The translations under genes and the position numbers were made by a program. From Sclerodactyla briareus (lineage: Eukaryota > Echinodermata > Holothuroidea > Dendrochirotida > Sclerodactylidae), in assembly GCA_026419785.1 (NCBI GenBank), contig JAODTK010004666.1, positions 629,690-693,689 of the forward strand: a stretch of 64,000 bases of DNA, in the 5' to 3' direction. Positions 10,670-57,224 of this stretch are shown in pieces; the first letter of the stretch is position 1, and each line of letters starts with the position of its first letter. The notes below the pieces were generated by a model. It saw only the letters and a program-made list of their open reading frames with translations. It made no database searches and was not told the origin of the DNA.

Positions 10670-10775
10670 CTACAAAATGGCACAACACCTACAGTACCGT
10701 GGTCGTTGACGCCCGTCGGTGGAGTGCGAGTCGGGGGAGCGAAGTAGGCATGGACCTTGACACTGGGAGTTGAGC
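10670..10775 (-). CDS. FBXL20: FBXL20-like exon E12: C-terminal tail with CaaX box and stop
   Basis: The acceptor CCCCCTTCCACAG is preceded by a long pyrimidine tract. After two one-base repairs the exon reads A-Q-L-P-S-V-K-V-H-A-Y-F-A-P-P-T, then R-P-R-Y-C-R-C-C-A-I-L and a TAG stop at 10,670-10,672. The family ends I-K-V-H-A-Y-F-A-P-V-T-P-P, then R-Q-R-F-C-R-C-C-I-I-L. The final C-A-I-L is a CaaX box whose terminal Leu favours geranylgeranylation. The neighbouring Cys residues resemble the same tail. The uncorrected frame misses the CaaX box and runs on past the TAG. Confidence 0.95.
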
Positions 10776-10861
10776 CTGTGGAAGGGGGAGGAAGAGGATG
10801 GTTACGGTAAGGTTGATCACAGAGTGTAGGTGTCATTTATAACAGACTCATCGCCCCCAGT

Positions 10862-11961
10862 TGTCTCGCCTGGTCGCGCGATCAGTGGTTTCTTCCATAA
10901 GTCACCATGCGATCAATTATAAGTCTTTCCGTGTGTTTTGCTTTCAGATTTTGGTATTACATGTAGCATTCAACAGACAACTGAAACGGCCTATTAATTA
11001 CCAATTTCAAATTCATAAGGACTGATTATTGAACAAGCCTACCAAAGAGTATACGTTTTGTGGAAATGTACAAAAAAAAATTCTGAATTGCAAATTAGAC
11101 CAAACTCAACTTCTATTGACCCATTTTCGCAGGACCAATGGTGGACCACACTTGATACATGTCATGGGGATTCCGACACTTGAACATTTGGCATGATGGA
11201 CAATTTATACACACTGCATAACCCCCAGTGACTCAAGTCAATGTTAACATTTTGGGGGACAAAAGTAGACCATCCCATCAAGCTTCATGAAAATCGAAAC
11301 CAACTTTGAAATTTTGAATAAACCATGCAAATAGACACAATGAATGACCTTCAAGTGTCCTCCAGTCTATGTGTAAAAATGTTGGAAGTGAAGTAATCCA
11401 TATGTACCAAGTTCCGTGAAGGTAAACCATACCCACAAGGTTTCATGAAAAATCCAAGCAACTTCCAAGATTTTGCATATATTATGCAAATTAGGTTTGT
11501 TGATTGACCCCAAATTTTTGTTAAATAAAGTTTTTTGACTGAAGGGAGACCATATTCATGAAGTTTCTAAAAATCCCAACGAATTATCAACTTTTCATAA
11601 ATTATGCAATTGGACAACTTAATTAGCCTATTTTATGCTGAACATTGAATCCAGTGCATCTACCTTATATCCTGCATCTATGTTGCTAAACCAAGTCAAC
11701 CATAGCACCTACGGTTCATCCGTATTCTTGCTAACGAGCCGAAACAATTAATCAATCAATATGCAAATTAACATTACTTAGTTAGTGACTTTGTGCCAAA
11801 ATCTAATCAGATTCGTGTTCATCCACCCCCGATACTACATACAGAATTTCATAAAAATTGGGCTTACCGTTCTGGAGAAATCCTGCTAACTAGGAGTGGG
11901 ACACCCCACACGACAAAGTGATCACTAAGTCTCCATCTGAACTTTGTTTCAGCGCGAGACA
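10862..11961. mobile_element. TIR-like non-autonomous element, copy A
   Basis: The 1.1-kb sequence begins TGTCTCGCCTGG and ends with the near-inverse CAGCGCGAGACA, suggesting terminal inverted repeats. The inside has no coding capacity and carries family phrases such as 'attatgcaaattag', 'cctacggttcatccgtattcttgctaacgagcc' (in part) and 'gagaaatcctgctaac'. It lies in the last intron between E11 and E12. A MITE-like DNA transposon is the likeliest class; no target duplication was confirmed. Confidence 0.6.
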
Positions 11962-12178
11962 AAATATCATTACCAAGATATTTAAGGATTGGAATAACCA
12001 AATATCTCCCACTTTGATCGAGTGAAAAGTAATGAAACATTGCATTTCAGTTGCATTCGTGTCAATTTACCCAACAAATAGGTAACAGAGAATGTCACAG
12101 GATTGCGGATGAGATATAGCCTCTCCAAGGGTTGCCCACTTGTTCTTAATGTGTTCATGATTTGTGTATGTTGCTCAC

Positions 12179-12391
12179 CTGCAGTCTCTGATGCCTGCTC
12201 TGGTTATGAGCTGACAGTCGTAGAGTTCAATCCGTCGCAGCCCGTGACAGCCCATCAGGTGCTCTAGGGAGGCGTCTGTGATCAGTGGACAGTTATCGAG
12301 CTCTATCACCTTGAGGACTTCGGTGGCACAGGCGCTGGTTCCTATGTGGCGTATACCCTGCGCTTGATCAGCTCACAGTGGGACAAAGGTT
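12179..12391 (-). CDS. FBXL20: FBXL20-like exon E11: LRRs 11-13
   Basis: The largest exon. It reads L-S-H-C-E-L-I-T-A-Q-G-I-R-H-I-G-T-S-A-C, then V-I-E-L-D-N-C-P-L-I-T-D-A-S-L-E-H-L, then R-R-I-E-L-Y-D-C-Q-L-I-T-R-A-G-I. The blocks V-I-E-L-D-N-C-P-L-I-T-D-A-S-L-E-H-L and R-I-E-L-Y-D-C are identical to FBXL20. Acceptor TTTCTGACAG, donor CTGCAG|GTGAGC. Two single-base deletions are needed, one in the first repeat and one four codons before the donor. The total of 213 nt equals the expected length within two bases. Confidence 0.97.
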
Positions 12392-12818
12392 CTGTCAGAA
12401 ACAGATAAAAATGGACCATCATGAGCTGATATGCACTACACCCTGTGCAATTGGGGCCAATTAGGGGGCAACACAAACCAGTGTCTTTGATAAGACCATG
12501 TCTAGTCCCCTCACCACCAAGTACAACAAAGTCTAGTTCCTCTTCCCACCAAGTTAACAAGTCGAGTCCTCATCCACCAAGTAAAACAAGTCTAGTCTCA
12601 TCCACAAGTAAAATCAGATTGCCCTTTGAAGTACAATGGTCACGTAAATTTTCTTTAAATTTCATCGACTGTTTTCAGTACGTCGCATTGAATGTCATCC
12701 ATCCAAAAAATCAATTTGATTATGTGTACTGTCCTTCTCTTGGCCAAAGTAGTTTTCTAATTATGCATTGCCAGAACACCGCACATGAAATATTCTAGAC
12801 AAGGCGATCCCCCCCAAG

Positions 12819-13714
12819 TGTCTCGCCTGGTGCGCGATCCGTTTTTTTCTTCTATTAGTCACCATGCAAACAATTACAAGGCATTCCCATGTGTCGCTTA
12901 AAGATTTGAGTATTATCTTTTACAGACCAGCTACTAATCAGTGACCTATTTCAAATCGAAAGGACTGATTATTGACAATGTCTCCTAAAGGATGAAGTCT
13001 GTAGCCGTGGACTAAATTGCCTAAATTATGCGTTTCAACGAAATCCGGCAAACTTCAAAATGTACGCAGAAATTATGCAAATTAGACCATTGAATGACCT
13101 CCATGACCCTGAATCCCCATGATAAAAATAATTGGAACTCCGGTAAACTATACCCACCAGTTTCCATGAAATCAAAGCAACTTAAAGATTTTGCATAAAT
13201 TAAGCAAATTAGGTATCAATGGAATGATCTCCATTGACCCCGGAACCCCGAACCTTTGTTAAAAAGTTTCAGGACTGAAGGTAGAACACATTCACCAAGT
13301 TTTTTTGGAAATCCGACGAAATTTTGAATTTTTGGCAATAATTTATGCAATTTAGATGACTTAATGTGACCATATTGTACGTAACGCTGAAAATCTGCTC
13401 ATTTCTCATCTACGTTTTATCCCGCATCTATGTGCCAAAACCAATTCACCATAGCACTACGGTTCATCGTATCTTGCTGACTATCCTGACAATAAATGAC
13501 ATTAAATAGGCTTCTTACGCTCACGTAATTAATGATTTTGTGCCCAAAATCTAAATCTAATCAGATCGTGTTCACCCACCCCGATGCTACCCTGAAAAGT
13601 TTTGTCCCAATTAAACTTACTGTTCTAAATATATCCTTCTAACGAGAGAGTGCCACACACACGCAACCATAGTGGACCACTAAGTCTCCCTCCTGAATTT
13701 CATTCGGCGAGACA
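12819..13714. mobile_element. TIR-like non-autonomous element, copy B
   Basis: Starts TGTCTCGCCTGG and ends GGCGAGACA, with the same internal order of phrases as copy A but about 200 bp shorter. It lies in intron 10. The leader 'aaggcgatc...cccc' just before the start also precedes the copies at 30,543 and 41,430, so the true 5' end may be about 20 bp further out. Confidence 0.62.
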
Positions 13715-14524
13715 AAAATGCAGCTTGATTCTTTTTAAGATGCACATCCCAATGGCCAAAGAGAATGATAGCTTCAAATGGATCCAAGGGACAGCATCAG
13801 TCAGGTCTTCAGTAGCATTCAGCTGGCTGCATCATCAGGCTTTTCTCCAAATGACGTGGTTACATTGTTACCTGTTTCCTGATGCCTATAACGAGCACCA
13901 TACCAATAGAGTCCTCAAACTGCTGTCTTTACTGTATTTGACCGACCCGCTTCCAGCTAACTACATCACTTGCTCTGATTACCAAACGATGGCAACACAC
14001 ATTCCAATGACAATTTTGCAGTAAGTCCATGGATGTATAGCGATATTGATCATATATTTGTATACCGCCCTATCCCGAGGAGCAATGATCTGAGGCAGTT
14101 TACAATCCCCGGCAACCAGATCTGTGATGCCGAGAGAGAAACCAACAGTCTTGATGTTTCTACTAGCCAGACCTACCTAGCCAGAGAGAGAACTATATGT
14201 TGTGTTGTTTGGCTTTGAAAGGAACACTTTTCATGGGAGATTAATACCATTAGCGTGATGGAAACATGGGGAAATATTTGCCAAGTTTCTTGTCCTCAGG
14301 TGATGTACCTTTTGCAATAGGGGAGTTTTGGAGGATCGTTCAACTGATTGTTTGTGCAGCATGATAAGCCTTCAAACTGCAAAGTGTCCCACTGACCTAT
14401 GGATACCATATCATTACTATATCTTTACAACTGTAACCGTGAACCCATAGGAGTACATGCATGGTACCAAGGCAGTCTTGTACAGGGCTCCTCCGCACAG
14501 TGCAAACCTTCGTAGTACATGATT

Positions 14525-14776
14525 AAACTATAAACCTTGTATACTTATGGCAAATTAGATGACAATTAAACCCTAGCATATTTTAGCACTGAGAAGCTAT
14601 TAATCTATAGATAGTTATTCAACTCATGTTCACACACCAAACGGCTGATACTACATACAAATTTTTAACCCAAATCGGACCGTCCGTTTTGAGAAAATCC
14701 TGCTAACGAGAAAGTGCAACAACGCCACACGCTAGATTGATCGCTAGCCTCTTTACTTTGTTCAGGTGAGACACAA
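14525..14776. mobile_element. TIR-like element, right-end fragment
   Basis: Carries the right half of the family: 'ggcaaattagatgacaattaa', 'gagaaaatcctgctaacgag', then a terminus 'ttcaggtgagacac'. The left half is missing. It stops about 55 bp short of exon E10. Confidence 0.5.
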
Positions 14777-14832
14777 CTTGCGTTTGGGTATCCTCATATG
14801 ATTTTGTCACAAACAGGTACGGAATGACTCAC

Positions 14833-14926
14833 CAATTTTTCTAGATTAGGACAGCCGAGGCTAGGTGACTCAGAGATCATCGGCGATTCGAGAAAGAACA
14901 AGATCAACCTGATGTTTAGAGACAAG
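14833..14926 (-). CDS. FBXL20: FBXL20-like exon E10: LRR 10
   Basis: Acceptor CTCTTGCAG, donor AAATTG|GTGAGT. With small repairs it reads C-L-K-H-Q-V-D-L-V-L-S-R-I-A-D, then S-L-S-H-L-A-S-G-C-P-N-L-E-K-L. The matching family segment is N-C-H-E-L-E-K-M-D-L-E-E-C-V-Q-I-T-D followed by a repeat ending H-C-P-R-L-Q-V-L. The length is 94 nt where about 102 is expected, so the exon has lost bases or is poorly read at its 5' end. The segment G-C-P-N-L-E-K-L next to a strong donor is the clearest part. Confidence 0.72.
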
Positions 14927-17900
14927 CTGCAAGAGTGATTCGTAGATTATTATCTGGCACTGCATCTAGAGGATGAAGAAAGTTGGCATGAAGACCACTT
15001 GAATGCAACACAACTCAGTCACTGATGCTGAAAGTAACACTTCCAAAGCAACTGTTGTTATATAATTATTCTGGTAATTCTCAGTATACTGCGTTAGCAT
15101 TCCTTTGTGTTCCTTGGCCCGTATCGATTGTTCACCTGTTCATCAAGTCAAAATAAGATATATCATCTTGGCTCACTGGAAAAGCTGATTGGTTCGTAAC
15201 AAAAAACAGAAAAAATTCAAACCCCCCATCAGTTGATCTCTAGTCTAATCTGATCTGATTCTGATTCTTTCATTATTAGGTGTGCTAAGAGCTAGCTGTC
15301 AGCATTCCTCCTGTTTTAATCTTATTATCAACAACAACGAAGAGAAAAAAATAATTGACAATAATTCCAATGAACTGCCTATACCCAACAAACTAGTATA
15401 CAAATTTACTACAGTGATTTTATAGATCAAAGCACGACAAAGATAGTTCCGGGTCATCCGGGTCGAATATAAACAAGAGTACCAATGGTGCTATAGCTCT
15501 AACCGCACAAATGTACAATTAGGTGTTAAATGTTCAAGACCATCAGGCCAAACAGGCAGTATCGAACAATGGCCTATTGTGCCCCTGTCAATGACCTTTG
15601 ACCTTCTTAGTAGTCAATAAACATTGTTACTCAGTTTGGTCAACATCCATCGAAGAATGACCAATTGAGAGAGAATAAGGCAATTCACACAGTTGTTGAG
15701 TCCAAGTTCGTCAATCCATCAAAGCATGACTTTATTTGGGGTCTGTAATGCTTCTTTTCATCAGATGTTACTATTTTACCTCTAATGGCACTATATGATA
15801 TTGCAATCAAAATCTGTGAATTGACACAGTGTCAAGAAAATCTATTGTACTTTGTAAGAGGACATACATTTTGAAACGTTACACATAATGGCCTATATTG
15901 CCCCTCTACTGAGTCTTGCCACCACCAGTGGAAAAACGTCAAGTCAATAAACATTGTGACCAAATTTGGTAGACACCCATTGAGGAATTACTGTTTGGGG
16001 GCCAAAAAAGCAAAAAGCGATGGATGGATGGATGGTAGATAGATAGAATGACATGCAGATTCTAATAGCTGTTTGAGCTACAAATGCAATGGTGCCTCCC
16101 ATCATAGTGTAGGTGGAAACCGTGAGTGGCCGTACTGTCGGCCAACTTGCAAATTGTCTTCCCAAGTGTCAGGTACATGGCGGCTCAAAACATCCATATT
16201 TGACCTTGAGTATGCCAGATGACCCAACTAAGAATCTCTTTTTTCTAGGCCAAACAATTCAAGGCTCATATTATCATGGCATGCCAATGTGGGATTTGAT
16301 ATTCACTCAGTTTCTATTCATCCACAAGCTATTCAATCCCTTTTGATTGTTATTGTTTTGATTAGATGTCACCTAAAAATGTAGCTTGTTCAAGACTCTT
16401 TTGATTCGTGGAAGGTATACAATTGGTGTACTTGCATTGATGACATACTGCATACCTTCAATCTCAACCTATCTGCAAATGAAGAGCGAGTGGAAAAATG
16501 TGCTGCGATGACTTATTCCTCCCAACTTTCCATTTAAAAAAAGGAAAACCTACCGCACACATTCCTCCCGATCCATTTTTCCTCATTCTGAACAAGTCTG
16601 AAAATATGATGAACAAACAATAAATCAGTGTGAAGGATAGGACAAATTTTGCAGCAATTACCTCCTATAGCAGTTCTGTGATTCAGGGGCTACTATTGTG
16701 TGACGCTGATATTACCGGGAAAAGTAGCCCAACCAGTCACACTTCCATTTCTATTATCTCCTTCAATTTTCTTCATTCCTTCTAGTGCACAAATGTATAA
16801 ACCCTGATTGGCTGCACTAGCGCACATAGACTGGTATGAGCCCTGTAGCTCTGTATATTTGGTGATTTGCGTTGCACGTGCATCAGTCCAGACTCTGGTA
16901 ATGTATAGAGTCTGCTGTGATTTACTGCCTTGTGTCTGCGGCGAAAAACAACAGCGCGCTACACGTAAGTTTACTTTGGCGCCGATATAGCGATCTCCAT
17001 ATTTTTTTACAGCATACAAGTTAATGACCGGATTCATGCAACTTCTCGGGTGAGGACGTTTCTATCAGTGAGAAGGTTTTATGTGATGTAGTTCTACAAA
17101 TCACTAGCGTATTGCATGGCTTTGTTATTGATGAAACATGTGCGAACCAGGGACCTCACAGTAAAATCAAAAGGACATATAAATGTTGGGTAGGCAAGTT
17201 CTGATAGGGCTGCACTTTGTGCTTATAGTAGGGCAGGCAAGTTCTAATAGGGCTGCACTAGTGCTTATAGTAGGGCAGGCAAGTTCTAATAGGGCTGCAC
17301 TAGTGCTTATAGTAGGGCAGGCAAGTTCTGATAGGGCTGCACTTTGTGCTTATAGTAGGGCAGGCCGAGTCCTGAGGAGGCTGCACTAGTGCTTATAGTA
17401 GGGCAGGCAAGTTCTGATAGGGCTGCACTTTGTGCTTATAGTAGGGCAGGCAAGTTTAATAGGGTTATAATAGTGCTTATGGTAGGGCAGGCAAGTTCTG
17501 ATAGGGCTGCACTTACGCCTATAGCAGGGCAGGCAAGTTCTGATAGGGCTGCACTTATGCTTACAGTAGGGCAGGCAAGTGCTGATTGCTTATTGACACA
17601 TAGCAAGTTCTGCTTTTTAGTCATCTGTCATGACTGTGGGCAAATTTGACAAATCCCAGCTCTTAGGGGTAACATGGGGAAGAGAACCTACGTTCATTCC
17701 TTCTGAATATCAAATCAGTTTTTGAATATCACAGCCACTGATTGATCATTGAGATCCATACTGTGAGCAGCTGCCCTGAGCTTTGAGGTCTCCTGGATCC
17801 TGTTGTGGATATACACCTCTGAGCAACAAATTACGTTAATGGCTAAAACTTACCCTAATCACTAACTTGACAATCCCTGATAGCCATCAATTGTACAATT

Positions 17901-17941: not shown

Positions 17942-18002
17942 CCTGGCAAGAGCTTGGAATCCACTATCAGAGAACTGTAAACAGCCAGAGACTTCTAGTG
18001 TT
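17942..18002 (-). CDS. FBXL20: FBXL20-like exon E9: LRR 9 (first part)
   Basis: Acceptor TTCCCCTCAG, donor GCCAGG|GTAAGT. The exon reads T-L-E-V-S-G-C-L-Q-F-S-D-S-G-F-Q-A-L-A-R with no frame break. The family has I-L-E-V-A-R-C-S-Q-L-T-D-V-G-F-T-T-L-A-R with the same boundaries. It is only 61 nt, so it does not stand out as an ORF. The 852-bp intron to E8 is the shortest in the gene. A 43-bp minisatellite lies about 350 bp downstream in the gene's direction. Confidence 0.93.
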
Positions 18003-18854: not shown

Positions 18855-18985
18855 CTTATACTATGGCAGTGGTTACTAAGTGATAAGAGTGCCTTGTCCG
18901 TGAGATGCTGGCATCCTGATAGACAGAGGGATTCCAGCTTTGTACAGCCTCGAGCCAAGTCCTGCATGCCGTCATCACTGATGTT
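18855..18985 (-). CDS. FBXL20: FBXL20-like exon E8: LRRs 7-8
   Basis: The exon is fully in frame with no correction: N-I-S-D-D-G-M-Q-D-L-A-R-G-C-T-K-L, then E-S-L-C-L-S-G-C-Q-H-L-T-D-K-A-L-L-S-L-S, then N-H-C-H-S-I-R. It aligns without gaps to the family's I-T-D-E-G-L-I-T-I-C-R-G-C-H-K-L-Q-S-L-C segment and following repeat. Acceptor CTCCCAACAG, donor ATAAG|GTGAGG. It has 43 codons plus two bases, joining E9 in phase 2. Confidence 0.97.
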
Positions 18986-22376: not shown

Positions 22377-22458
22377 CAGGCAATTGTGCAAGTTAAGAGT
22401 TTTGGGTTTTAAATGGGGGACTGTGACAACCTAAATGATGAAGGCCTTCATCTGTGAT
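22377..22458 (-). CDS. FBXL20: FBXL20-like exon E7: LRR 6
   Basis: Acceptor CTTGTTTCAG, donor TGCCTG|GTGAGT. It reads I-T-D-E-G-L-H-H-L-G-C-H-S-P-H-L-K, then P-K-T-L-N-L-H-N-C-L, once one C is removed from a run of five. The family has L-E-D-E-A-L-K-Y-I-G-A-H-C-P-E-L-V-T-L-N-L-Q-T-C-L-Q. The P-K pair is an apparent two-codon insertion in the repeat. An inverted-repeat element ends about 15 bp beyond the donor, so little intron sequence separates the splice site from a possible hairpin. Confidence 0.89.
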
Positions 22459-25273: not shown

Positions 25274-25401
25274 CATGATACAGCCCTTGCATCTGTATTA
25301 CGTTTAAATGCTCGCACGCCCTCACCAGGGCTTCAATGCCATTGTCACTGATCTTGTCGCACCAGGATATGTTCAGCTCACTGAGCTGTTTACAGCCATC
25401 A
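25274..25401 (-). CDS. FBXL20: FBXL20-like exon E6: LRRs 4-5
   Basis: This open stretch reads D-G-C-K-Q-L-S-E-L-N-I-S-W-C-D-K-I-S-D-N, then G-I-E-A-L-V-R-A-C-E-H-L-N-V-I-Q-M-Q-G-C. It is very close to the family's G-C-P-L-L-E-Q-L-N-I-S-W-C and G-I-Q-A-L-V-R-G-C segments. Acceptor CCCATACAG, donor ATCATG|GTAAGT. One extra G (GGG for GG) near the 3' end throws the final four codons out of frame. Removing it restores Q-G-C-I-M and a phase 0 junction to E7. Confidence 0.96.
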
Positions 25402-31419: not shown

Positions 31420-33560
31420 CTTGAATGACCTTGATGACATAACGGTTTTCATGAAAATGATTACTTAATCATATGCAGCATGTCCCGAAATTTCAGTTAT
31501 CTAACACCAAGTCACTAAAAAATGTTGCAGAAAATGTTTAATATGTGGCAGTTTCTTGGACCTCGAATGACCTTTGAGACATGGACGGTTTTTATGAAAA
31601 ATGCTTGCATCAATGTGATGCACCAAGCCCCAAAAGCATTATGTCATCAGGTACACACAACACCCCTATGTTATTGCCAAAAAAGGTATTAAAATCCAAC
31701 CTTTACCCCCTTGTAACTTAGACCAGTGTCAGAATTGAAGCGGGAGTGGGGAGTGGTTCGTTAGTGCCAGCATATAGAACTATCACATATCCAAAAATCG
31801 AAGGTTCTTTTTTCTTTGGCCTGTAATCCTTAAAATCAGCCATTTCTTAAAACTTGACCTTGACCTTTTGACCTTGGCTATAGATGTGTTTGATTACTGA
31901 ACCCAAAAATTACCATGACAATCTCTCGCGCACCCTAGCTGCCATCATTCCATTGTTACCCGCCATTTAACAAAATTCGAAAAATTGTGTAACGGTGTAC
32001 CATCTCCACCAAGTTTCATGAGGTTCACAATGAACACGCCAATGTTATGCGAAAAAGCGATTAAATTAAACTTGACCCCTTGTAACCACTAAAGTATGCG
32101 TTCGATCGAATCGGGAGTTGATTCCCTCCAAAAAGCACACAAAGGTCTATTCACGATCCAAAAATAACCAGTTTTTTTTTTTTGGCTAGTAACTCCTTAA
32201 ATAAGCACATTATTCAAGACTCAACCTTAAACACATGACCACCCGGACAGAGGTCAAATGAGGTCGAGGTCACACACATGAGGTCAACAATGATATCACA
32301 CAATGGTGAACATTCCCGCCTTCACAGATATTCAATTTTCGGTATGGCAAGAAACCAGTTTGACCCTAAGTGACCTTGAATGACCGTTAATGACATGGCA
32401 GGTTTTAAAAATGTAACTCTCCATTGAGAATCCAACTCCTAGGAGCATTTTGCATTTGCTGGAAACAGTGCCCCAGTGCATTGCCAAAAGTAATAAATAC
32501 AGTTTTGAACCCCTACGTGACCTTTGATGACTTCAATGGACATGACGGTTTTTATGAAAATTGTACTATCCGTGTAATGCATCCAATCCTAGAAGCAAAT
32601 TGCATGCCAATGAACCCGATTATGTTATTCAAAAAAGCTATTAAATTAAACTTTGACCCCTTGTAACTACCAAAGTATGCGTCCGATCGAAGCGGGAGTT
32701 GGTTTTCTCCATGAAGCACACAAAGGTCTATACATATCCAAAATAACCAGTTTCTTTTTTTGCACGTAATCTTAAATAAGCACCATTCTCAAGACTCAAC
32801 CTTTAACCACCATGGACCACCCGACAGAGGTAAATGAGGTCACAGGTCACAAACATGCAGGCAAACAATTATATGACAATAGTTAACCTCCCAGCCTTCA
32901 CAAACTATCAATTCTCCGATTATGGCCAGAAAAACATTTCAAGTTGTTGACCCTAAGTGACCTGGAATGACCTTTAATGACATGCAGGTTTTTATGAAAA
33001 AATTGTAACTCCCATGTGCTACATCCACTCCTAGGAGCATTTTGCATTCTGATGAACATGCCCAGTTCTATTGCCAAAAAGTACTAAATTCAGTTTTGAC
33101 CCCTAAGTGACCTTGATGACCTTCAATGACATGTCGGTTTTATAAAAATTGTTACTCGCCATGTGATGCATCCGCTCCTAGAAGCATATTGCATTCCAAT
33201 GACCACGCCCGATGTTGGATTGCGGAAAAAAGCTATTAAAGTAAACTTGGACCCTTGTAACTACCAAAGTATGCGTCCGATCGAAGCGGGGTTGGTTTCC
33301 CATAACGAACACAAACGTCTATCACATATCCGAAAATAACCAGTTTCTATTTTTTGTGCCTGTACCTCCTTAAATAGCACATTTATTCAAGACTCAACCT
33401 TGAACCACATGGACCACCCGCCAGAGGTCAAATTGAGGCAGAGCCCAAAATGCAGGTCAACAATATATCACAATGGTGAAACCTTCAAGCCTTCACAGAC
33501 ATTCACTTCTTCGATTACGGCCAGGGAAAAACAGTTTTGAGTCTCGACACCCCTAAGTGA
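31420..33560. repeat. ~585-bp unit repeated in tandem, about three copies plus a partial
   Basis: Each unit has in order: 'gaccttgaatgacc', 'ggtttttatgaaaa', 'tcctaggagcattttgcat', 'cccttgtaactaccaaagta', 'gatcgaagcgggagttgg', 'aaataaccagttt' and 'ccacatggaccacccg'. The 'cccttgtaac' anchors at about 32,076, 32,656 and 33,251 are spaced roughly 580 and 595 bp. No open frame is conserved between copies. Confidence 0.85.
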
Positions 33561-33639
33561 CCTTGAATGACAGATTAGAAACAGTGAATGACATCTGGGC
33601 ACTCATCCCTACGGTTAAAAATTCATTGGGCACTAGGAT

Positions 33640-35520: not shown

Positions 35521-35559
35521 AAGCAGGGAAATAGATCAACCGATTTGCCCGAATAAGGA

Positions 35560-37510
35560 GGTGCATGACTGCTATACAGAGCCATTACATACAAGACCAA
35601 GGTGCAGGCTGCTCTACAGAGCTTACATACAAGACCAAGGTGCAGGCTGCTCTACAGAGCATTAATACAAGCCAAGATGCACGCTGCGCTACAACGCATT
35701 ACATACAAGACCAAGGTGCATGCTGACTCCCACAAAGATTAATATACACGACAGGTGCATGCTGCTCCACAGAGCTTACATACAGGCCATGGAGCACACT
35801 GCTCACAAAGAATTACATCAAGACCGAAGTGCATGTGCTCCAAAGAGCATTACATACAAGACCAAGGTGCACCTTGCTTCACAGAGCATTAATACAAGAC
35901 CAAGTGGCACGCTGACTCGACAAAGCATTACATACAAGACCCAAGTACACGCTGCGCTACATATTACATGCAAGACCAAGGTGCATGCTGCTCCACAAAG
36001 CATAACCTACAAGACAGTGCAGGCTGTTATACAAAAGAAAACATATGTAGACCAAGGCTCAGGCGCTTTCTACCAAAACATACATACAAGACCAAGGCGC
36101 ATTGCTGCAATACAGAGGCTATAAATACAAGACCAAGATGCACGCTGCTCTACAGAGCATGACATACAAGACAAGGTGAGCTGCCCACGAGCATTACATA
36201 CAAGACCCAGGTGCATGCTGCATACAGAGCATCAATAACAAGGAATGGTGCATACTGATCTACAGAGCAGTACTAAAGACCAAGGTGCATGCGCATACAG
36301 AGGCATTACATACAAGACCAAGGGGCATGCTGGCTACAGAGCATTACATACAAGACCAAGTGCATGCTGCCTACCGAGCATTACATACAGACCCAGATGC
36401 ACGCTGTCTCAAAGCAATTACATACGAGCACCAGGTGAATGCGCTCTACAAAAGCTTTTTTATAGTACAAGGACCAAAGTGCATGCTGCTCCACAAAGCA
36501 AATATACAGACCAAGGTGCATGCTGCGCCACAGAGCATACATTAAGGCCCATGGAGCACACTGCTATACAGAGCATTTTCATACAAGAACGAATGACATG
36601 CTGTCCACACAGCATTACATACAAGATTCAAGGTGCACGCGCACTACAAGCATTACGTTACAAGACCAAGGTGCAGGCTGCTCCACAAAGCATAACCTAC
36701 AAGACCAAGGTGCATGCTGCTCCACAGAGAATAACATATAAGGCTATGAGCACATTGCTCTACAGAGCCTTAAAACAAGACCAAGATGCACGCTGCTTTA
36801 CAAAAGCAATTACATACAAGGGACCGAAGTGCATGCGCTCCACAGAGCATTACAGACAAGACCAAGGTGCACGCTGCACTACAAAGCATTACTACAAGAC
36901 CAAGGTGCATGCTGATCCTAAAAGCATACATACAAGACCAAGGTGCAGGCTGCTCTACAGAGCATTCCTATAAGGCCTGGACACCCTGCTCTAACAGAGC
37001 CTTAACATACAAGACCAAGATGCACTGATCTACAGAGCATCACATGCAAGACCAAGGTGCACTCTGCTCTAACAGAGCATCACTACAAGACCAGGGGCAC
37101 CTTGCTTACAGAGCATTACATACCAGACCAAGGTGCACTCTGCGCTACAAAGCATTACATACAAGACCAATGTACACGCTGCTCTACATATTACATGCAA
37201 GACCAAGGCGCATGCTGCTCCACAAAGCATAACATACAAGACCATAGGTTCAGGCTGCTCTAACAAGCATAACATACCAGACCAAGGTTCAGGCTGCTCT
37301 ACCCAAGTCATTACATACAAGACCATGGTGCATTCTGCTCTACAAACATAACTTACAAGACGCCAATGTTCAGGGCTTCTCTATCAATCATTACATACGA
37401 AGACCAGTGGTGCACGCTGTTCTGCAGAGCATGACTACAGACCGCGGTGCACGCTACTCTACCTATTACATGCATACCAATATGCATGCTACTCTAACAA
37501 GATTACTACA
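35560..37510. repeat. 39-bp minisatellite array, about 50 copies
   Basis: The unit reads 'ctctacagagcattacatac' then 'aagaccaaggtgcatgctg'. Nearly every copy carries a single-base deletion or substitution. The array gives open frames on both strands, including the longest in the window (242 codons at 36,245-36,973), all made of repeated T-Y-K-T-K-V-H-A peptides. These are not genes. There are no spacers, so it is not a CRISPR array. Confidence 0.97.
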
Positions 37511-38127: not shown

Positions 38128-38299
38128 CTGATGGATTTGAGTGTTTTTGGTCGGTGAGGGCGTTACATGATCCTAGGTCGAGTATCGTCAGTTTCCCTTC
38201 TTGCTGTATTTACTCAGGCTGGTGGCTGTGGCTGTCTTGATGCCCTTGCAGTCTTCTAGTTCAGCTCTTCGATGTTTTCCGACATTCTCAGCAAAAGTT
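38128..38299 (-). CDS. FBXL20: FBXL20-like exon E5: LRRs 2-3
   Basis: Acceptor TTTGTCCTACAG, donor CATCAG|GTGAGT. The repaired reading includes T-F-A-E-N-C-R, N-I-E-E-L-N-L-E-D-C, T-A-T-S-L-S-K-Y, L-T-I-L-D-L-G-S-C-N-A-L-T-D and T-L-K-S-I-S. These match the family's R-T-F-A-Q-N-C-R-N-I-E-V-L-N-L-N-G-C and following repeat. Five or six one-base indels in 172 nt make this the most damaged exon; uncorrected it has two stops. Both junctions are phase 2: AA|A with E4 and AG|T with E6. The last rebuilds the Ser of S-D-G-C. Confidence 0.9.
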
Positions 38300-39689: not shown

Positions 39690-40690
39690 GTTAACAATTT
39701 CTCCTCTCAGTCACTTCTTTTGTTGGTCTATTGTATTGCCCCCATCCTGCTAAGGATATAGTCAGGGAGACAGCGAACTCTATGAGTAGAGATGGTAACA
39801 ATTTCTCCTAAGAGTCACTTCTAGAGACTGGCAGTGATTTTGTTGGTTTATTGTATTGCCATCATCCTGCTAAGGATATAGTCAGGGAGACAGCGAACTC
39901 TGAGTTGAGGCACTAACAATCTCTCCTTAGAGTCACTTCTAAAGACTGGCAGTGATTTTGTTGGTTGATTGTATTGCCATCATCCTGCTAAGGATATAGT
40001 CAGGGAGACAGCGAACTCTTTTTGAGTTGAGGCACTAAAAATCTCTCCTTAGAGTCACTTCTAAAGACTGGCAGGGATTTTGTTGGTTGATTGTATTGCC
40101 ATCATCCTGCTAGGATATAGTCAGGGAGACAGCGAACTCTTTGAGTTGAGGCACTAACAATCTCTCCTTAGAGTCACTTCTAAAGACTGGCAGTGATTTT
40201 GTTGGTTGATTGTATTGCCATCATCCTGCTAAGGATATAGTCAGGGAGACAGCGAAATCTTTGAGTTGAGGCACTAAAAATCTCTCCTTAGAGTCACTTC
40301 TAAAGACTGGCAGTGATTTTGTTGGTCCATTGTATTGCCGCCCATCATCCTGCTAAGGATATAGTCAGGGAGACAGCGAACTCTGAGTTGAGGCACTAAC
40401 AATCTCTCCTTAGAGTCCACTTCTAAAGACTGGCAGTGATTTTGTTGGTTGATTGTATTGCCATCATCCTGCTAGGATATAGTCAGGGAGACAGCGAACT
40501 CTTTGAGTTGAGGCACTAACAATCTCTCCTTAGAGTCACTTCTAAAGACTGGCAGGGATTTTGTTGGTTGATTGTATTGCCATCATCCTGCTAGGGGTAT
40601 TGTCTGGGAGACAGGGAACTTTTTCGAGTAATGGACCCAACAATTTTTCTTTTTAGTCACTTCTAAAGACTGGCAGGGATTTTGTTGGTC
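39690..40690. repeat. ~120-bp satellite, about eight copies
   Basis: The unit includes 'aatctctccttagagtcact', 'tctaaagactggcagtgatt', 'ttgttggttgattgtattgc', 'catcatcctgctaaggatat' and 'agtcagggagacagcgaact'. Central copies are over 95% alike by eye and the edges are diverged. Its upper edge lies about 260 bp from exon E4. Confidence 0.97.
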
Positions 40691-40954
40691 TATTGATTTG
40701 ATTTGGAATTCTATGATTTAGGAGGCTGGGTGAGGCTCATCAAGGAGCCCTGGCCCCGTATTGCCTGTGGATGAGCGCCAGGTGATAACTCACCTCTTCT
40801 CTGGCAGGGGACAGCAACCTCGGCCAAGAATGTGAAAGAAAATGTGGTAGCATGCTAGTGTGATTGCATTTATCCACATATAATTGATGTTATTTTATTC
40901 TGAAATGAATTTTTTTTACACAATTCCGACAACAACGATGATAACACAACTCAC

Positions 40955-41059
40955 TTAGAAGAAGATGCATCGTCTGTGGACGCTTCGCATCCCTTAAGAC
41001 TGAAGCGCTTTCAGAAATCCTCGCGCATCTTTTTTGAGATGTTGGTAACTACCATCCCG
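40955..41059 (-). CDS. FBXL20: FBXL20-like exon E4: first LRR
   Basis: Acceptor CGTTTCTTAG, donor TCTAA|GTGAGT. It reads V-V-T-N-I-S-K-K, then F-L-K-R-F-S-L-K-G-C-E-A-S-T-D-D-A-S-L. The family segment is V-V-E-N-I-S-K-R-C-G-G-F-L-R-K-L-S-L-R-G-C. It needs one missing C (TTCTG for TTCCTG, otherwise a stop) and slight repair near its end. It supplies the linker from the F-box into the first cysteine-type LRR. A 120-bp satellite begins about 260 bp below it, within the next intron. Confidence 0.86.
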
Positions 41060-42289: not shown

Positions 42290-42976
42290 GAAAAAAATCA
42301 CCTCAACTGAGCTAGGTAGCGACAAAGTGGAACAAAATTTGTGGACCCTTTTTTTTTTGTAACCATAGGTTAGGGTTATGTACTATACACCTTTCAACAT
42401 CTTCCTCGCCAAATTCCTGATAGCCAAGGTATATTAGTCACTACAATATTTACCTCAAGATCAGTCTTGTTAACTACAATCTGAGAGATAACCTCCAGTT
42501 CCCGCCTAATTACCACTGGTTGCCATGGTAACAATGTATGCAGCAGAGGTGGATTCAAATAAATATCTTACAAGGTTTTGGGTTCAAATCATCAATCGAT
42601 ATAAATTCCCTAAAGGAGTATGATGTGATACTTCGGAACTGAAGCTTGCTTATTCATTTGTAAACCATGAACAAGCACAGGCATATCACCACACAGGCGA
42701 TATGACAAATGGATCTGCTTTTGGTAATGTTTCTCCCCGCCTGAAGTAGTAGTAGAAACGACCTGTGCCTTTGCTTTGCACACTGTGAGCAGCAGTTAAG
42801 AGATTTGGTCCTGCATCTTGTGTGACAATTACAGTGCTCACATACTGCCTGGTTAACATGTAAACCCTATACTGTATAGTCAGCACAGATCACTTAGCCC
42901 TCCTGCAGCATGTGTGATGTTCCTAATTGCCTTGATCTCATCAACCGATAAACGGCAATAACTCTGATCGCACAAC
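42290..42976. repeat. ~0.69-kb dispersed repeat, copy 1
   Basis: Matches 44,510-45,203 in the same orientation nearly base for base, including 'tgtactatacacctttca', 'ggcatatcaccacacaggcg', 'gagcagcagttaagagattt' and 'caataactctgatcgcacaa'. No open frame is shared. Confidence 0.93.
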
Positions 42977-44509: not shown

Positions 44510-45203
44510 TGAAAAAAAATCATCTCAACCATGTTTTTTTTTTTTTACTATAGGGTTAGAGATATGTACTATACACCTTTCACAGCTTCCTCGCCAAATT
44601 TCTGATAGCCTTAATCTTAAGTACTTACATCTACAAGCCAGCCAAGGTATCATATAAGCTATATCAGGACACAATAATTACCTCAAGATCAGTTCTTGTT
44701 AACTACAATCTGAGAGATAACTCCAGTTACCGCCTAATTACCACTGGTGCCATGGCAACAATGTATGCAGCAGAGGTGGATTCATAAAATATCTTACAAT
44801 GTTTGGGTTCAAGCATCATCGAGTATAAATATAACTGCAAGGAGTATGATGTGATAATTTCGGACGAAGCTTGCTTAATTCATTTGTGAACCATGAACGA
44901 GCACAGGCATATCACCACACAGGCGATATGACAAATGGATACGACTTTATGGTAATGTTTCTCCCCGCCTGAGTAGTAGTAGAAAACGACCTGTGCCTTT
45001 GTTTTGCACACTGTGAGCAGCAGTTAAGAGATTTGGTCCTGCATCTTGTGTGACAATACAGTGCTCACATACTGCCTGTTAACAGGTAAACCCTATACAT
45101 GTAATAGTCAGCCTAGATCAATTAGCCCGCCTGCAACATGTGTGATGTTCCTAATCGCTTCATCTCATCACCGATAAACAGGCAATAACTCTGATCGCAC
45201 AAC
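44510..45203. repeat. ~0.69-kb dispersed repeat, copy 2
   Basis: Same unit as 42,290-42,976 with a ~60-bp insertion near 44,610 and scattered single-base differences. The 1.5 kb between the copies is unrelated. Confidence 0.93.
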
Positions 45204-50809: not shown

Positions 50810-51375
50810 ATGGGAAAGCTGCATATAAAATTCACTTTGACCTCTACGGACCTCGTGGTGACTCTGACCTTACCTTCAAAACAATATGGTTCAAATTTAC
50901 TCATCATGGGGAACACACATACCCAGTATCATTTCATCCATCCAGGTGGGGTCGAGTTCTTGTGTTTCAAGCGAATTGTCAAAATTATTGAAATTTCACA
51001 CTTTTTCTATTCCTCTCTCGAAAAAGTCTACACCCCCGACTGAACCAAAAACTATGGTGTTCTATAACTCCCTAATAAGAGCTATACACCAAATTTCAAC
51101 TTGATCGGACCACCATTCTGGACTATCTTGTTTACAAGGTTTTCAGACCTTGACCTCCATTGACCTTCAGATGACCTCAACCTACCCCAAACACAATAGC
51201 TTCATGTACTCAATCATGGGGACACACATAACCAAAATTGAAGCTTCATACATCAGAGTGGGAGTTGAGGTTATCGTGTTTACAAGCTTGGGCGTCACTA
51301 CGCACATGCACACACCACACACACAAGCTGTCATGACTGCGTAGATTCCTCTCTGACTTCGTCACGGAATAAAAA
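50810..51375. repeat. Hairpin-ended dispersed repeat
   Basis: Two internal blocks with 'tcatggggacacacata' and 'catccaggtggggt' lead to a CA tract, then 'gattcctctctgacttcg' and 'tcacggaataaaaaa'. It is the clearest copy of the 3' end. Confidence 0.6.
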
Positions 51376-52338
51376 ATCAGAACGTGACAGATAAACCTCA
51401 CATGACTTTGTAAAGTATACTGCATATACAAACTGCTTGGACATTCGTAATATACTCTAGTCCAGCTAGCAGATTGTGATTGATATGTTGCACACTGTTC
51501 AATTAAAACTCCATAATCTCACTGTTGAAAACTGTAGTTTTAATGCACCCACAGAAATTTGCTTTTTATGTGTTTAGAAAAAATAAAATCATATCATCAT
51601 CTCTAAGTAACTGCCATAGATTTGTTCACCCAGCCCAGGGGGTGAACAAGGTAGTCAGCATATAGACTGGGGTAGATAAGATGGTTTCAGTGTAGTTACA
51701 GTTTTCTTTATTATCTACACCAACTCTGCGGCTGATATTGCTCATCTGCAACGACACCCCGTTGTGTTTGTCTTTAAGTTCCATCCAGCCTTTGATTTGA
51801 GATATATTGGATAATTACCAGCTAGAACTCATCGCCACTGTCGGCTGCGCCTCCAGCTTCCCGCTTGCTAATATCTCTCCTGTTACTTCTTCATACTTCC
51901 GTCCGAACCTCTACTCTTCCATCAGAGCGGTGCCAACCATAGGGAGTGGAAAACATCAGGAACCACAGCAAATTTTTACTTTTTTCCCTACACCATAAAT
52001 AGGGCCACTGCCAGTCAACCTTCATGGTTAATACTTTTGTGGCAACAATCAATCTAGCCCGTAGCACCTTAAAAAAATTTAGTCATTATCATATTCATTG
52101 TGTAGCACCCAAAAGTCTCAAGAAGCTGCCACAATTTTTTTCTGGAAATACAGTTATTTTGGGCCCTGCAGGCCACGTTTTTTACAGGGAGAAAAGATTT
52201 CTTCTCATTCGATAGACTTTCTTCATATTTTGCACCGCGATCTGTTTCAATCCATCACCCCTCCCACTCTTTAGAAAATTGCTGCTCATTGCATCCCTCC
52301 GACCTCATGAATTGAACTGCTGGCATATGTACACCTAC

Positions 52339-52412
52339 CCTCCACATCGTCCTGAATCAAATACATCACCCTCTCCCAGTTTACTGCCGTCCATCTCCAG
52401 AACAGTCCACGT
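52339..52412 (-). CDS. FBXL20: FBXL20-like exon E3: end of F-box
   Basis: Acceptor GTTCTTTCAG, donor GAG-G|GTAGGT. With three or four small indels it reads T-W-T-V-L-E-M-D-G-S-N-W-E-R-V-D-V-F-D-F, then Q-D-D-V-E-G. The family sequence is A-W-N-V-L-A-L-D-G-S-N-W-Q-R-I-D-L-F-D-F-Q-R-D-I-E-G. The conserved Trp pair and the D-G-S-N-W core complete the F-box. The exon joins E2 in phase 0 and E4 in phase 1 across an 11.3-kb intron. Confidence 0.88.
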
Positions 52413-53707
52413 CTGAAAGAACAGAGAAATAATCAGAGAATGAGGTGAAACTTACAATCACCAAACAAATCTGTATATGGGTGGTAGAGACATAAAAGCT
52501 GGTGGATGTGTGCCGGAATACCGACAATTTTAAAGCTACATTTCAACATTGAAAACATGGGGAGATTATCACTGGATTGGACTAGAACTTGAACCTTGAT
52601 TGGACGGTATCTTTAATCATATGAATTGAGCAAATTGAGTAATTATGTTTATGACAGAGAACCGACTCATGGGAAGATAGGAAAATATCAGTAATTAATG
52701 TCTCAAATATTTCAAATGATATGTTAAATAGCAAAATAACTTGACTTCCAGTCAAGGTACCTTTTTTTCAATAGTTTCTCCCTATTATTCCTGATTTCTA
52801 CTAATACCATGGAACATTGTGACCATACCTCTGTGATTGCTTAAAACAATGCGGTTGCTGATTATGGCATATAGTGCACTTTTGATAATTTCTTCCACAA
52901 AAAAGTGATAAAACAATGGACTAGTTTTTCTCCACTCTCAATGAGAAAGCTACACACTATATTTGTTCAACTATTACATTACACATTATTTACTGATAGG
53001 GACTCTTCCTAGTTTCTCTGGATATTGACCAAACTTTTGAAGGTCAATAACTCGGTTTGGCCTGCTGATGTAGTGGTTCATTACTTGCAATATCACCAAC
53101 TGTTGTAGCCACATCTGCATGTCCTTTAATCTGCACGACTCTACCTACCTGTAACATTATCACAACCTGTCATGGACCAAACCTTCCGTCATTGACTTAT
53201 CATAACCTTTAATGCAGTAGATAATGATGCAAAGTGCGGAGTGATGTCAAATTGCAGTTTTTTTCTCCATTTCCTTCATTTTTTTTGCCACAACCAAATA
53301 ATATTAACACTGTCAGGGATGAAGCATGAATTGGGAGAGAATGGCACTCACAATCCCTGAACAGCCTGGATCCCGGTCTACGAACAACCAAACTCTTATC
53401 TCATATTAACACAATCTGCCCCCTAGCTCCTCTCCTCCTTATAGTCAACTAGTCACATTCTGGCAAAAGTTAACCCTATCTCAAACTGGCACCCCAATTT
53501 CTCTATGCCCCCAGGCTTTTTTGAGTCACAATATCAAACCACGGTGAAGGGAGCTCGGAGGGGTTTTGTCGTGTGTAGACCCGGAAAACAAGTCATTACC
53601 GGACTCAGGACTCACAATTTTTCAGCAGGGACTGTAGACTGGAAAACCTTGCCGCAAGGTAATAGACACAACAGTATTAGTCTCACACCAAACAATATAA
53701 GCGTCAC

Positions 53708-53763
53708 CTTGGATACCTGGGCACCCGCAAAGACTCCACGGACATCAAGGTATGAAAAAGATT
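53708..53763 (-). CDS. FBXL20: FBXL20-like exon E2: F-box core
   Basis: The acceptor TTCCTCCACAG is followed by a segment reading I-F-S-Y-L-D-V-R-G-V-F-A-G-A-Q-V-S-K, ending at a GTGACG donor. The family sequence here is I-F-S-Y-L-D-V-V-T-L-C-R-C-A-Q-V-S-R with the same exon boundaries. One extra T in a run of five is the only frame correction needed. This is the SKP1-binding helix region of the F-box. A 115-codon open frame on the opposite strand over the same bases is an antisense shadow. Confidence 0.87.
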
Positions 53764-56700
53764 CTGTGGAGGAAGGGACAGCGAAGATTAAACTACATGT
53801 AGCAGTCGTACCACACAAACCTCAACAGAAACTCCACATTGCTGAATCCTGATAAGGAAAGCTGAAAACACTTATCCAAATAGTACCCATCTATGGCACA
53901 TCTCTATTTTCCCCCACCCCCCCCCCCCCTACATAGATCTTTGGCCATTTAATTTAGATTATTTTTCTCAATGTTTTTCTGAGTTCAAAAAAAATTCTGC
54001 CAGTGCTCCACCACTAATGATCTACTGTATGAAATTTTTTTGTAAAAGAAAACTTGTTCCAATGTAAAATTGCTAAAAAAGCCAATACTCAATGTCACTA
54101 GTTAACACTCGCAGTCATGGTTTCCAAATTCATCGACTGAAATCGAAAATTTGCAAAGTAGTGTTGATCGGTATCGAGGTGGATGTGACTTTGTTATTGG
54201 AAGGTTATCCCAATAAGGGGAGAAAAGAAAAAAAAAAAAAATTAGGGGAAAAATTAAGGAGAATGATTCTAAAACAGGATTCTCATACTCGGGAATCCAA
54301 GGAAAATAACCATAGAAACTGTGATCTAATAACTGTTAACGACAGAACTATGTGATATGTGTAGCCGAGAATCAAACTCCTAGTGCTGAATGAACACTTC
54401 TTAATGTGAAGCCCAACAGACTCTGATATGCTAAAATAAGGACAATAGGCTAGGACACTGGTAATATACCATAGGTAGACTTTGACCTGTTGACCTTAGG
54501 GCCTGAAACCAAAGAATAGGGATCATCTAACCCACATAGCCAACCCACAAGCAAAGGTGGGGGATACACTTGTAGCCACATTTCAAGTGTGTTTTTTTTC
54601 CCCAACTAAATTAGACCATCATGTTACAAGACTATTTAAACAATAAATATTCTTTGTAAACAAGCAATAAGCCTGTCACAGTGACAGCTAATGAATGATT
54701 ATCTATTGTGTCGAAAGTCATATGGGTAAACTGACCATTGGGCCGGCCACAAAATACAGTGTGCAAAGGCAAAAACAATCCTACTAACCTCCCCAGACCC
54801 TACAGAAACTACAGAACTTCACAGAGTCCCTTATACCCAAAACAATAAATGGATGAATTGGTAGAGTTTCCAAAGGTGGGGAAAGTTCAAAAATAGGCCA
54901 TGTTGACAGAGATATGTATGGGGGACAGCGCTCGGAAAAAAAGGGGTGCGGAGTGCGATCCGCACCGAGAAGGTCCAAAAGAGCACCCGAAATCGATAGA
55001 GGGGTGCGAAAAAATTCAGTGACAAATTGAGACAACATCGCACCGAAATATCGCGCACCAGCATCCATAAAATTGGAACACCTTGTACGTAAACAACATT
55101 CAAAATATCACACCGGTTGAAGCAAAAATGTCTTGCAATTTCCAGAAAAAAATTAAAAATGTTCCCCCCCCCCTTCCCCCGAAAACCCGCCCTCCCCGAT
55201 AAATAAAACTCAAAAAACGATCGTTCATTCAGCCGTAAAAACTAGGTTATATGCGGTGATCGACTCCTATTACAATGCACACATGACATGAGAAAATTCA
55301 AAATACGAATGGCATGTGCTACCACATAACGCCTTGCCTCGATGGCATGGTTACCGAAGAAGACACGGCCTGGAATTGATTGTGAATGTGCTAAAATCAT
55401 TGCGAAAACTAATAATTATCATCGTTGTCCCCAGTTGAAATTGGGGAATTTAAACCATTCAACATGGCATTGAGAACGTAGCCTAGGGTCTACGCGAGTC
55501 ACAGGCCACAGCAACATTTTAGTAGATCGGCGGACCGGCTACCGCTCGAGTGTTCCAGTCTTAACCACAGGGCCAATGGGAAAAAAAAACCCATCAGACG
55601 TGGTGAGAAAATGATCGAACGTTGATGTTAACGCAATTCAATGGTGTACACACATACACACTGGTTGTGTACGTGTATGCACGGAAAGTATTTTCGGCTT
55701 CTCGTGCGCTGGCCGCGCGTATCGACTTTATGATATTCAAAGAGTATCGGAGCTCGAATCCATTTCGAAAAGCTGGCGTATATTATTTGGTTTCCTTCAC
55801 CGGGAACTGAACATATGCATGCAATAAACAAGATATGGACTCGGATATAAGTAATGAATTGAAACTAAAGCTGAATTATGACTACCCTGTAGGTCGATTC
55901 AGGGACCGAGATACGCGCTAAAGATGTACGTCACAATGCCCAAATATCAGCACCGACATCGTGGGTGTAAATCTCGGTAAAACTCAATGGGACTTACTCG
56001 TTTTTCAAACTTTCCAAACACTTTTAATGTATCATTCCTTCCAGTCACATAACAGGCTGAAATGTTTTCATCAATATTTTGGTAACTGTGCATATAAATT
56101 TGCAACACGCGCAGTACAAAAATGAGTAATCCGACATTAAAAGTTTAGGCTAAGCCCTCAGTGTGCAACGAATAACGATAGGCCACAGTGCGTACACGCG
56201 CTGACGTAATCGCCGCATCCATGAATTGATGGGATTTTTTTAAAATCAGGGAGTTGCCTTACGTAATGTAATGGGCATGTGAAAGTGTAATGTGCTTGAC
56301 GTGAATAATCGTATTGGAATCGGGACCGATTATGGAAAGGATAATCAGGTAATCGGAATAATCCGATATGGCATAATCTTTGAACACTATTCAGAGGTAG
56401 ACACGCTGATACGGTTCTGATCAATTTCGCCAGAATCGGAGCGGTACAAAGCCAAAATGCTAAAACCTGAACAGCAAAGAAATACAAGCTGGAAAAGACT
56501 GGAATAAACTAGCCGGAAATGGGAGGTGGCAATTTCATTCTATCTTACTTTCTATCTACGCAGTAAACTTGCGAGTTGGCTACCCGAATTACCATTCGCG
56601 GGCCCTGGGACTGAGTATCGACCTCCCCCCCCCCCCCTTTCCAACAATTTATTAAACTGCCCTGGAAGCCAAAATGGATCGTTTTTTGGTGAAAAAATCA

Positions 56701-57166
56701 ACTACTGCCGAAATAGATGTGGAAAAGATGTTTGCACTGCATTGTTGAACAAAACGGTGTGCGGTATTGATAGCTAACCATCGCTTGTGTCTTTTAGCCA
56801 TGCTTTGGGACCACTTTCAATGGTTAGGCCTGCATCCCGAAAATCCCAATTAGCACCCGAAATGGGATTGAGAGTGCGATTTTTTTTTAAAAAATAGTAT
56901 ACCCGAAGGAACAAAAATGGTTCCTACCCTGAATAGGTGGAGAAACCCTATCTAAACCCCCCGGGCTGTGTAGTAGTGGGCATGCGCAGCTTGAAACTGT
57001 GAACATGCGTATTGGAATATTAATTGTCAAAGCGAGTATGGACCCATCGCTACAGTCATTTCCTGACAATACCAGGATCTGCTCCCAAGAAGCAGAGTCA
57101 ATTAACTTGACCATAACCAACAAATTAACTCAATAAAATTATTGATTTGAATCACATGTAAATCAC
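53764..57166 (-). other. Intron 1 of the FBXL20-like gene
   Basis: No gene is seen in these 3.4 kb. The part at about 55.2-57.0 kb has more CpG than its surroundings (for example around 55,530, 55,710 and 56,200), which could mark a regulatory region or internal promoter. No core promoter element can be assigned. C-rich and A-rich homopolymers occur at 53,915, 54,230, 55,160 and 56,625. Confidence 0.6.
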
Positions 57167-57224
57167 CTGAGATGAGCTCTTGTGCGTGCAGTTTCCTGAT
57201 TGATCACCAACTAGCTAGAATCAT
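57167..57224 (-). CDS. FBXL20: FBXL20-like exon E1: N-terminus and start of F-box
   Basis: On the minus strand a pyrimidine-rich stretch ends in CTCACAG, followed by ATG and a short segment reading, after small frame repairs, V-I-N-Q-K-L-H-A-Q-E-L-I-S. This matches the family segment I-N-K-K-L-P-K-E-L-L-L-R that opens the F-box. The exon ends at a GTGATT donor and joins E2 in phase 2 (AG|A). In vertebrates the equivalent exon also begins with a Met codon just after its acceptor. Two or three one-base indels must be assumed and the donor is weak, so this is the least certain F-box exon. Its support is position, size (58 nt, as expected) and the match to the missing segment. Confidence 0.6.

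Follow-up and report, generated by a model that had tools for sequence, protein, structure and literature searches.

Exon structure of the locus

The window that we analysed, a 64,000-nucleotide stretch of Sclerodactyla briareus DNA, very probably carries an FBXL2/FBXL20 gene on its minus strand. The gene appears to be single-copy and is most likely functional; it has at least 13 coding exons, and its introns reach 12.7 kb. FBXL20 is F-box/LRR-repeat protein 20, also called Scrapper. A spliced alignment of FBXL20 and FBXL2 to the minus strand of the window, with frameshifts allowed, reached a score of 904, its pieces lying collinearly between about 57.2 kb and the CAIL-stop at 10,670. The resulting model comprises 13 coding exons (57224-57167 to 10775-10670) of 44-213 nt each, which sum to 1,286 nt and span 46,555 nt. 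An earlier note, made from these letters, had predicted the same coordinates, strand and exon order, and its estimate of about 1,280 nt for the summed exons agrees with ours; we count thirteen exons where it had twelve. All 12 donors in the model read GT and 12 of 13 acceptors read AG, counts obtained with an aligner that required GT/AG sites and with two upper boundaries set by hand. The note's AG/GT bounds on every exon thus survive at all sites except the acceptor of exon 11, which reads CG.

The first exon found (57167-57224) tentatively covers FBXL20 from residue 22-24 to residue 34 and has an ATG directly after a CACAG acceptor. The match is weak and contains several frame changes, the upper boundary is hand-set, and at a very lenient frameshift cost (FS=-6) the N-terminus was placed outside this exon. 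Spliced alignment places the F-box core (RIFSYLDV...QVSK) in exon 2 (53708-53763), the end of the F-box (TWTVLEMDGSNWER...) in exon 3 (52339-52412), and the first leucine-rich repeat (LRR; MVVTNISK...) in exon 4 (40955-41059). Further LRRs follow in exon 5 (38128-38299; TFAE... KLTILDLGSCNALTD), which contains several frame changes, and in exon 6 (25274-25401; SDGCKQLSELNISWCDKISDNGIEALVRAC...), which was recovered by both tblastn and spliced alignment. Exon 7 (22377-22458; ITDEGLHHLGCH...) encodes one LRR by spliced alignment, exon 8 (18855-18985; NISDDGMQDLARGCTKLESLCLSGCQHLTDKALLSLSNHCHSI) encodes LRRs found by both methods, and exon 9 (17942-18002; RTLEVSGCLQFSDSGFQALAR) again encodes one LRR by spliced alignment. 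Exon 10 (16554-16597; TCSE..KMDREECV), an LRR exon from the spliced alignment, is interrupted by an in-frame stop under the strict setting or by frame changes under the lenient one. Exon 11 (14833-14888; ...LGCPNLEKL) was read by hand; here the aligner gave 14860-14833 only, plus short spurious blocks. Exon 12 (12179-12391; LSHCELI...GIRHIGTSACATEVLKVIELDNCPLITDASLEHLMGCHGLRRIELYDCQLITRAGI) encodes LRRs supported by both methods, and exon 13 (10670-10775) encodes the C-terminus, ...VKVHAYFAPPTRTPPTG..RPRYCRCCAIL, with a CaaX-type end and a TAG stop at 10672-10670. Small aligner blocks at 63587-63540, 55.8-53.8 kb, 15990-15963 and 15027-15001 shifted with the frameshift cost and were rejected as fillers.

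Window position 64000 is the end of the contig, so the 5' end of the gene, with its first residues, is probably missing from it. The earlier note had described the exons as the full protein less its first few residues; the alignment does extend from residue 22-24 to the C-terminus, with the reservation that exon 1 is weak and the 5' end probably off the contig. We looked for a first exon in 57225-64000 by scoring matches to FBXL20 residues 1-15 in frame and without gaps, and found none: the top score was 13, whereas the top scores of 30 mononucleotide shuffles were 14-30. A frame-changed first exon would escape this search. On the 3' side, the first AATAAA or ATTAAA lies more than 2 kb from the stop codon. 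Pfam searches for other genes gave no match at cut-off for 9 stop-free ORFs hand-picked from the 104 of at least 80 aa, and none at E up to 0.01 for 10 further ORFs picked from the same set. A tRNA scan with bacterial settings found none in the window, and nothing there matched Rfam at gathering scores.

Significance of the match and family membership

Short exons combined with free changes of frame can be fitted to unrelated sequence, and we asked how far LRR-like exons drawn by chance from 64 kb would account for the alignment. The plus strand scored 156, eight Markov sequences 176-199, five shuffled queries 174-202, and the reversed query 205; the observed 904 exceeds the highest of these 15 controls more than fourfold. 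Moreover, plain tblastn, which allows for neither frameshifts nor splicing, recovered on its own four pieces that are collinear in the window: residues 137-204 at 25.5-25.3 kb (E 1e-10), 234-276 at 18.98-18.85 kb (E 1e-8), 342-401 at 12.36-12.18 kb (E 8e-24, 75% identity) and 405-436 at 10.77-10.67 kb (E 3e-5). With none of the controls reaching 904, the likelihood of a chance pattern is vanishingly small and we rule it out. These scores support the earlier claim of an FBXL20/FBXL2-like gene on the minus strand at 10.7-57.2 kb.

Reading the protein through its frame changes under the guidance of FBXL20 and FBXL2 revealed an F-box at residues 11-46 (PF12937, 29.6 bits, above its cut-off of 24.3; PF00646, 20.1 bits, just below its cut-off of 20.5), scores to be read with caution since exons 1-3 contain frame changes. 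The same guided read-through contains a cysteine-containing LRR array (PF13516, 53.5 bits against 23.4), and the C-terminal CaaX-type prenylation motif, ...RYCRCCAIL followed immediately by TAG, lies in one open frame. The repeat pattern is common to LRR-type F-box proteins, and the LRR pieces from tblastn also match other query repeats more weakly, as would be expected if this were another FBXL gene (FBXL13, FBXL14, FBXL17 or similar) merely resembling FBXL20. Against the FBXLs with solved structures, however, the guided read-through scored 465 bits over 418 residues with FBXL2 and 88 bits with FBXL17. The one-frame pieces of exons 12, 8 and 6, with boundaries taken from the model and frames left unmended, each had FBXL2 (6o60_C) as best PDB chain, at 108, 99 and 77 bits against 24, 39 and 49 for the next chain. 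Each total adds up several repeats; the highest-scoring single stretches in FBXL2 give 69.7, 33.0 and 35.0 bits, respectively, and each piece matches FBXL2 LRRs best in the register of the model. The C-terminal VKVHAYFAP...RCCAIL stretch is likewise common with FBXL2 and FBXL20. We consider another FBXL gene highly improbable and reject it on these PDB scores: as judged from sequence, the predicted protein is nearer over its whole length to FBXL2/FBXL20 than to the other FBXLs with solved structures.

A search of the assembly (319 Mb in 3,171 contigs) with FBXL20 gave at least four matches, a lower bound set by the five candidates scored. Three lie in the present gene (best E 5e-23) and the fourth lies on contig C441 (E 4e-8, 35% identity). 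The earlier note had allowed for a better FBXL20 match elsewhere in the genome; among the matches listed, the best is the present locus. A second copy or haplotig was rejected on the basis of exon 12, the one of 13 exons searched as DNA, whose only match among the best candidates scored is itself. Searching the assembly for the F-box family was uninformative, as neither the family nor any of the 14 controls gave a match; a search for SKP1, also without a match, was equally uninformative. COX1 had 0 matches in the assembly.

Origin of the frame changes

Under the strict setting, the alignment over residues 24-436 shows 13 changes of frame and a single in-frame stop; under the lenient setting, it contains 27 frame changes in 403 residues and no in-frame stop. 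The short exons and at least 13 frame changes account for the failure of the ORF search to find them. The earlier remark that no exon makes a notable ORF therefore stands, while the many frame changes had gone unstressed.

As a yardstick for assembly noise, we used three actin loci from the same assembly, which show 1 frame change in 335 residues, 5 in 375 and 7 in 348 under the strict setting, and 1, 5 and 14 (in 365) under the lenient one. The FBXL gene is noisier than all three. The actin locus with five frame changes is identical to human actin at 352 of 375 residues, and because so well conserved a gene is damaged in this way, indel errors of the draft assembly are most likely the best explanation for the frame changes in the FBXL gene as well. 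Such errors would break the frame within exons, perhaps more often near the contig end. In line with assembly noise, the two copies of a repeat in an intron of the FBXL gene are separated by 36 mismatches but as many as 29 gap events, of which 25 involve a single base. Other repeat pairs in the window point away from such errors, with a more natural ratio of mismatches to gaps (18312/24728, 62 mismatches and 8 gap events; 11421/13142, 111 and 29).

The same frame changes could instead be real mutations in a unitary pseudogene, the sole FBXL2/FBXL20 gene in decay. Their density above that of any actin locus, the in-frame stop, the CG acceptor and the lack of a second copy of exon 12, the single exon searched as DNA, would all fit such a history. 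Neutral decay should yield many more substitutions than indels, and with stops made cheap the aligner takes just 3 stops beside 12 frame changes, which counts against decay. The GT donors and all AG acceptors but one are kept, exon 12 shares 77% identity with FBXL20, the C-terminal motif is intact, and the well-conserved actin gene carries similar damage; overall, we regard a decaying gene as unlikely. We likewise think it decidedly unlikely that the frame changes are real and that the sole FBXL2/FBXL20 gene has been lost or is unusually read, its splice sites and C-terminal prenylation motif being kept. In practice this locus is a useful warning: with exons this short, introns this long and an assembly rich in indels, an ORF scan would miss the gene and automatic annotation may label it broken, and a protein-guided, frameshift-tolerant alignment recovers it.

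Predicted function and comparison with known FBXL proteins

By analogy with the known family, the product is most likely a prenylated SCF substrate receptor. Its F-box would bind SKP1 and thereby join the CUL1 (SCF) ubiquitin ligase, its LRR horseshoe would pick substrates, and geranylgeranylation of its C-terminal cysteine would allow the ligase to act on membranes. FBXL2 is reported to be geranylgeranylated by GGTase3 (PMC7729025). The gene is an ordinary member of the FBXL2/FBXL20 family of ubiquitin-ligase subunits, and no new mechanism is needed.

Human FBXL17 (PDB 8uah, 6w66) is also an LRR-type F-box protein, and its best stretch in the comparison is in the LRRs, but its match is far weaker than that of human FBXL2 (6o60_C, in complex with SKP1 and GGTase3). 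FBXL2 shares the domain order and the CaaX-type end, which is CVIL in FBXL2 and CAIL here. Human FBXL20 aligns collinearly, starting at residue 22-24 and reaching its C-terminus, and also has a CaaX-type end; it differs in its first residues, which were not found in the S. briareus contig, in the frame changes of the assembled S. briareus sequence, and in its last four residues, which are CIIL in human FBXL20. Exon 12 is nearer to FBXL20 than to FBXL2 (77% versus 63%), whereas exon 6 is slightly nearer to FBXL2 (54% versus 51%). When both human proteins guide the alignment, identities over the 403 aligned residues number 236 with FBXL20 and 218 with FBXL2, and these counts do not justify naming the locus after either one. 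Among the papers listed in literature searches, judged by title and abstract opening, none dealt with FBXL20 gene structure outside mammals. In mammals, Fbxl20 is regarded as a paralogue of Fbxl2 (PMC7729025), and a gene outside mammals, such as this one, may thus be the counterpart of both.

Spliced alignment and exon structure of the FBXL gene

We aligned human FBXL20 and FBXL2 to the minus strand of the window using a spliced, frameshift-tolerant aligner written for this analysis. The FBXL20 query was matched by phmmer to human FBXL2 (PDB 6o60_C) at 772 bits. FBXL20 residues 24 to 436 (the last residue) aligned with a score of 904, while the controls run at the same settings scored 156 (plus strand), 176-199 (eight Markov sequences), 174-202 (five shuffled queries) and 205 (reversed query). 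The earlier proposal, which placed an FBXL20/FBXL2-like gene of 46.5 kb at 10,670-57,224 of the minus strand, proves right in substance. Plain tblastn, which has no splicing model, also recovered four FBXL20 pieces in the correct order, with the LRR pieces giving weaker extra matches to other repeats of the query.

Our model of the FBXL gene comprises thirteen exons of 44-213 nt, totaling 1,286 nt over a span of 46,555 nt; the collinear multi-exon gene envisaged earlier is retained, with thirteen exons rather than twelve. GT is found at all 12 donors and AG at 12 of 13 acceptors, but the aligner demanded these sites, so they are built into the model and do not test it independently. The upper boundaries of two exons, exon 11 (14833..14888) and exon 1 (57167..57224), were placed by hand. 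Exon 11 has CG as its acceptor, and exon 1, picked at two of three frameshift costs, is a tentative assignment. The last exon (10670..10775) encodes the C-terminal CRCCAIL, with a TAG stop immediately after.

Family assignment and related loci

The read-through protein, translated across frame changes under FBXL20/FBXL2 guidance, contains an F-box (PF12937, F-box-like; 29.6 bits, cut-off 24.3) and LRRs (PF13516, LRR; 53.5 bits, cut-off 23.4). Against solved structures, FBXL2 ranked first with 465 bits and FBXL17 second with 88. Because of this guidance, we repeated the family match with one-frame pieces of three exons: exon 12 (12179..12391) scored 108 bits for FBXL2 versus 24 for the next chain, exon 8 (18855..18985) 99 versus 39, and exon 6 (25274..25401) 77 versus 49, each a total over several repeats. 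The best single FBXL2 stretch (69.7, 33.0 and 35.0 bits, respectively) was in each case the one assigned by the model. Since the exons lean either way, the gene cannot be assigned to FBXL20 in preference to FBXL2, or the reverse.

The window is the final 64 kb of contig C2477, in an assembly of 319,486,128 bases and 3,171 contigs. We searched this assembly with FBXL20 to see if the best match sits elsewhere; among the matches listed, the best (5e-23) lies inside the FBXL gene. There are at least four matches at E-values up to 0.001 (five candidates scored), three of them inside the gene. The fourth listed, L002 (G000:C441:285800-286012), is 35% identical to FBXL20, and its 71-residue stretch scores 112 bits for FBXL2 and 63 for FBXL17. 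Its best FBXL2 region (residues 81-143) is not the part of FBXL20 initially matched (269-339), which suggests that this locus is probably a piece of a different LRR-type F-box gene. Exon 12, the one exon of thirteen used as a DNA query, returned itself alone among the matches listed. Overall, the FBXL gene is an ordinary conserved gene.

Frame changes and repeats

The exons make no notable ORF, as the earlier note observed. The reason is that they are short and interrupted by frame changes, of which the strict frameshift setting gives 13, along with one in-frame stop, and the lenient one 27 with no stop. These changes could mean either that the gene is dying or that the assembly is noisy. As a yardstick for noise, we aligned three actin loci, picked from 27 actin matches of the same assembly, to human actin. 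Over 335, 375 and 348 residues, respectively, they carry one, five and seven frame changes at the strict setting; the lenient setting gives one, five and fourteen (the last in 365 residues). Frame changes are denser in the FBXL gene than in each of these loci, which counts against assembly error, as do two repeat pairs with a more natural-looking ratio of mismatches to gap events (18312/24728, 62 to 8; 11421/13142, 111 to 29). However, the second actin locus is identical to human actin at 352 of 375 residues, and readings other than a working gene are hard to reconcile with its sequence, despite its five frame changes. Moreover, an intron repeat pair (42349-42976 / 44534-45203) shows 36 mismatches versus 29 gap events, 25 of them single-base, and the window lies at a contig end, where read depth is often low. 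We therefore consider assembly indel errors the most likely main cause of the frame changes.

Contig C2792 carries a nearly intact actin gene with one frame change (L015) and two further actin-like loci in which frame changes or stops are numerous (L017, G000:C2792:266500-271500; and G000:C2792:288474-290985), which may be decaying tandem copies.

The direct repeats at 42349-42976 and 44534-45203 (~650 nt, 2.2 kb apart) lie in the intron that separates exon 3 from exon 4. For a 507-nt part, these two copies, 91% identical, are alone among the assembly matches listed, so the pair resembles a duplication that arose locally, or an artefact of the assembly, more than it does a dispersed element. 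A tandem array at 35559-37462 (~38-nt units, ~50 copies, 72% matches) gives the one ORF in the window that is closed, has a start codon and reaches 150 aa or more (36245-36973, plus strand). Another, at 39718-40695 (~120-nt units, 8 copies, 92% matches), lies within the intron flanked by exons 4 and 5. A tandem triplet at 32028-33571 (~580-nt unit, ~80% identical) is rich in one-base gaps, which make up 44 of the 59 gap events of its longest pair.

Proposed function

Family membership suggests that the product would select substrates for an SCF ubiquitin ligase while attached to membranes, a role that the features of the FBXL gene fit. According to a review, SKP1 attaches to F-box proteins via the F-box, FBXL proteins recruit substrates via their LRRs, GGTase3 geranylgeranylates FBXL2 itself, altering its location in the cell, and FBXL20 is regarded as a paralogue of FBXL2 in mammals (PMC7729025).
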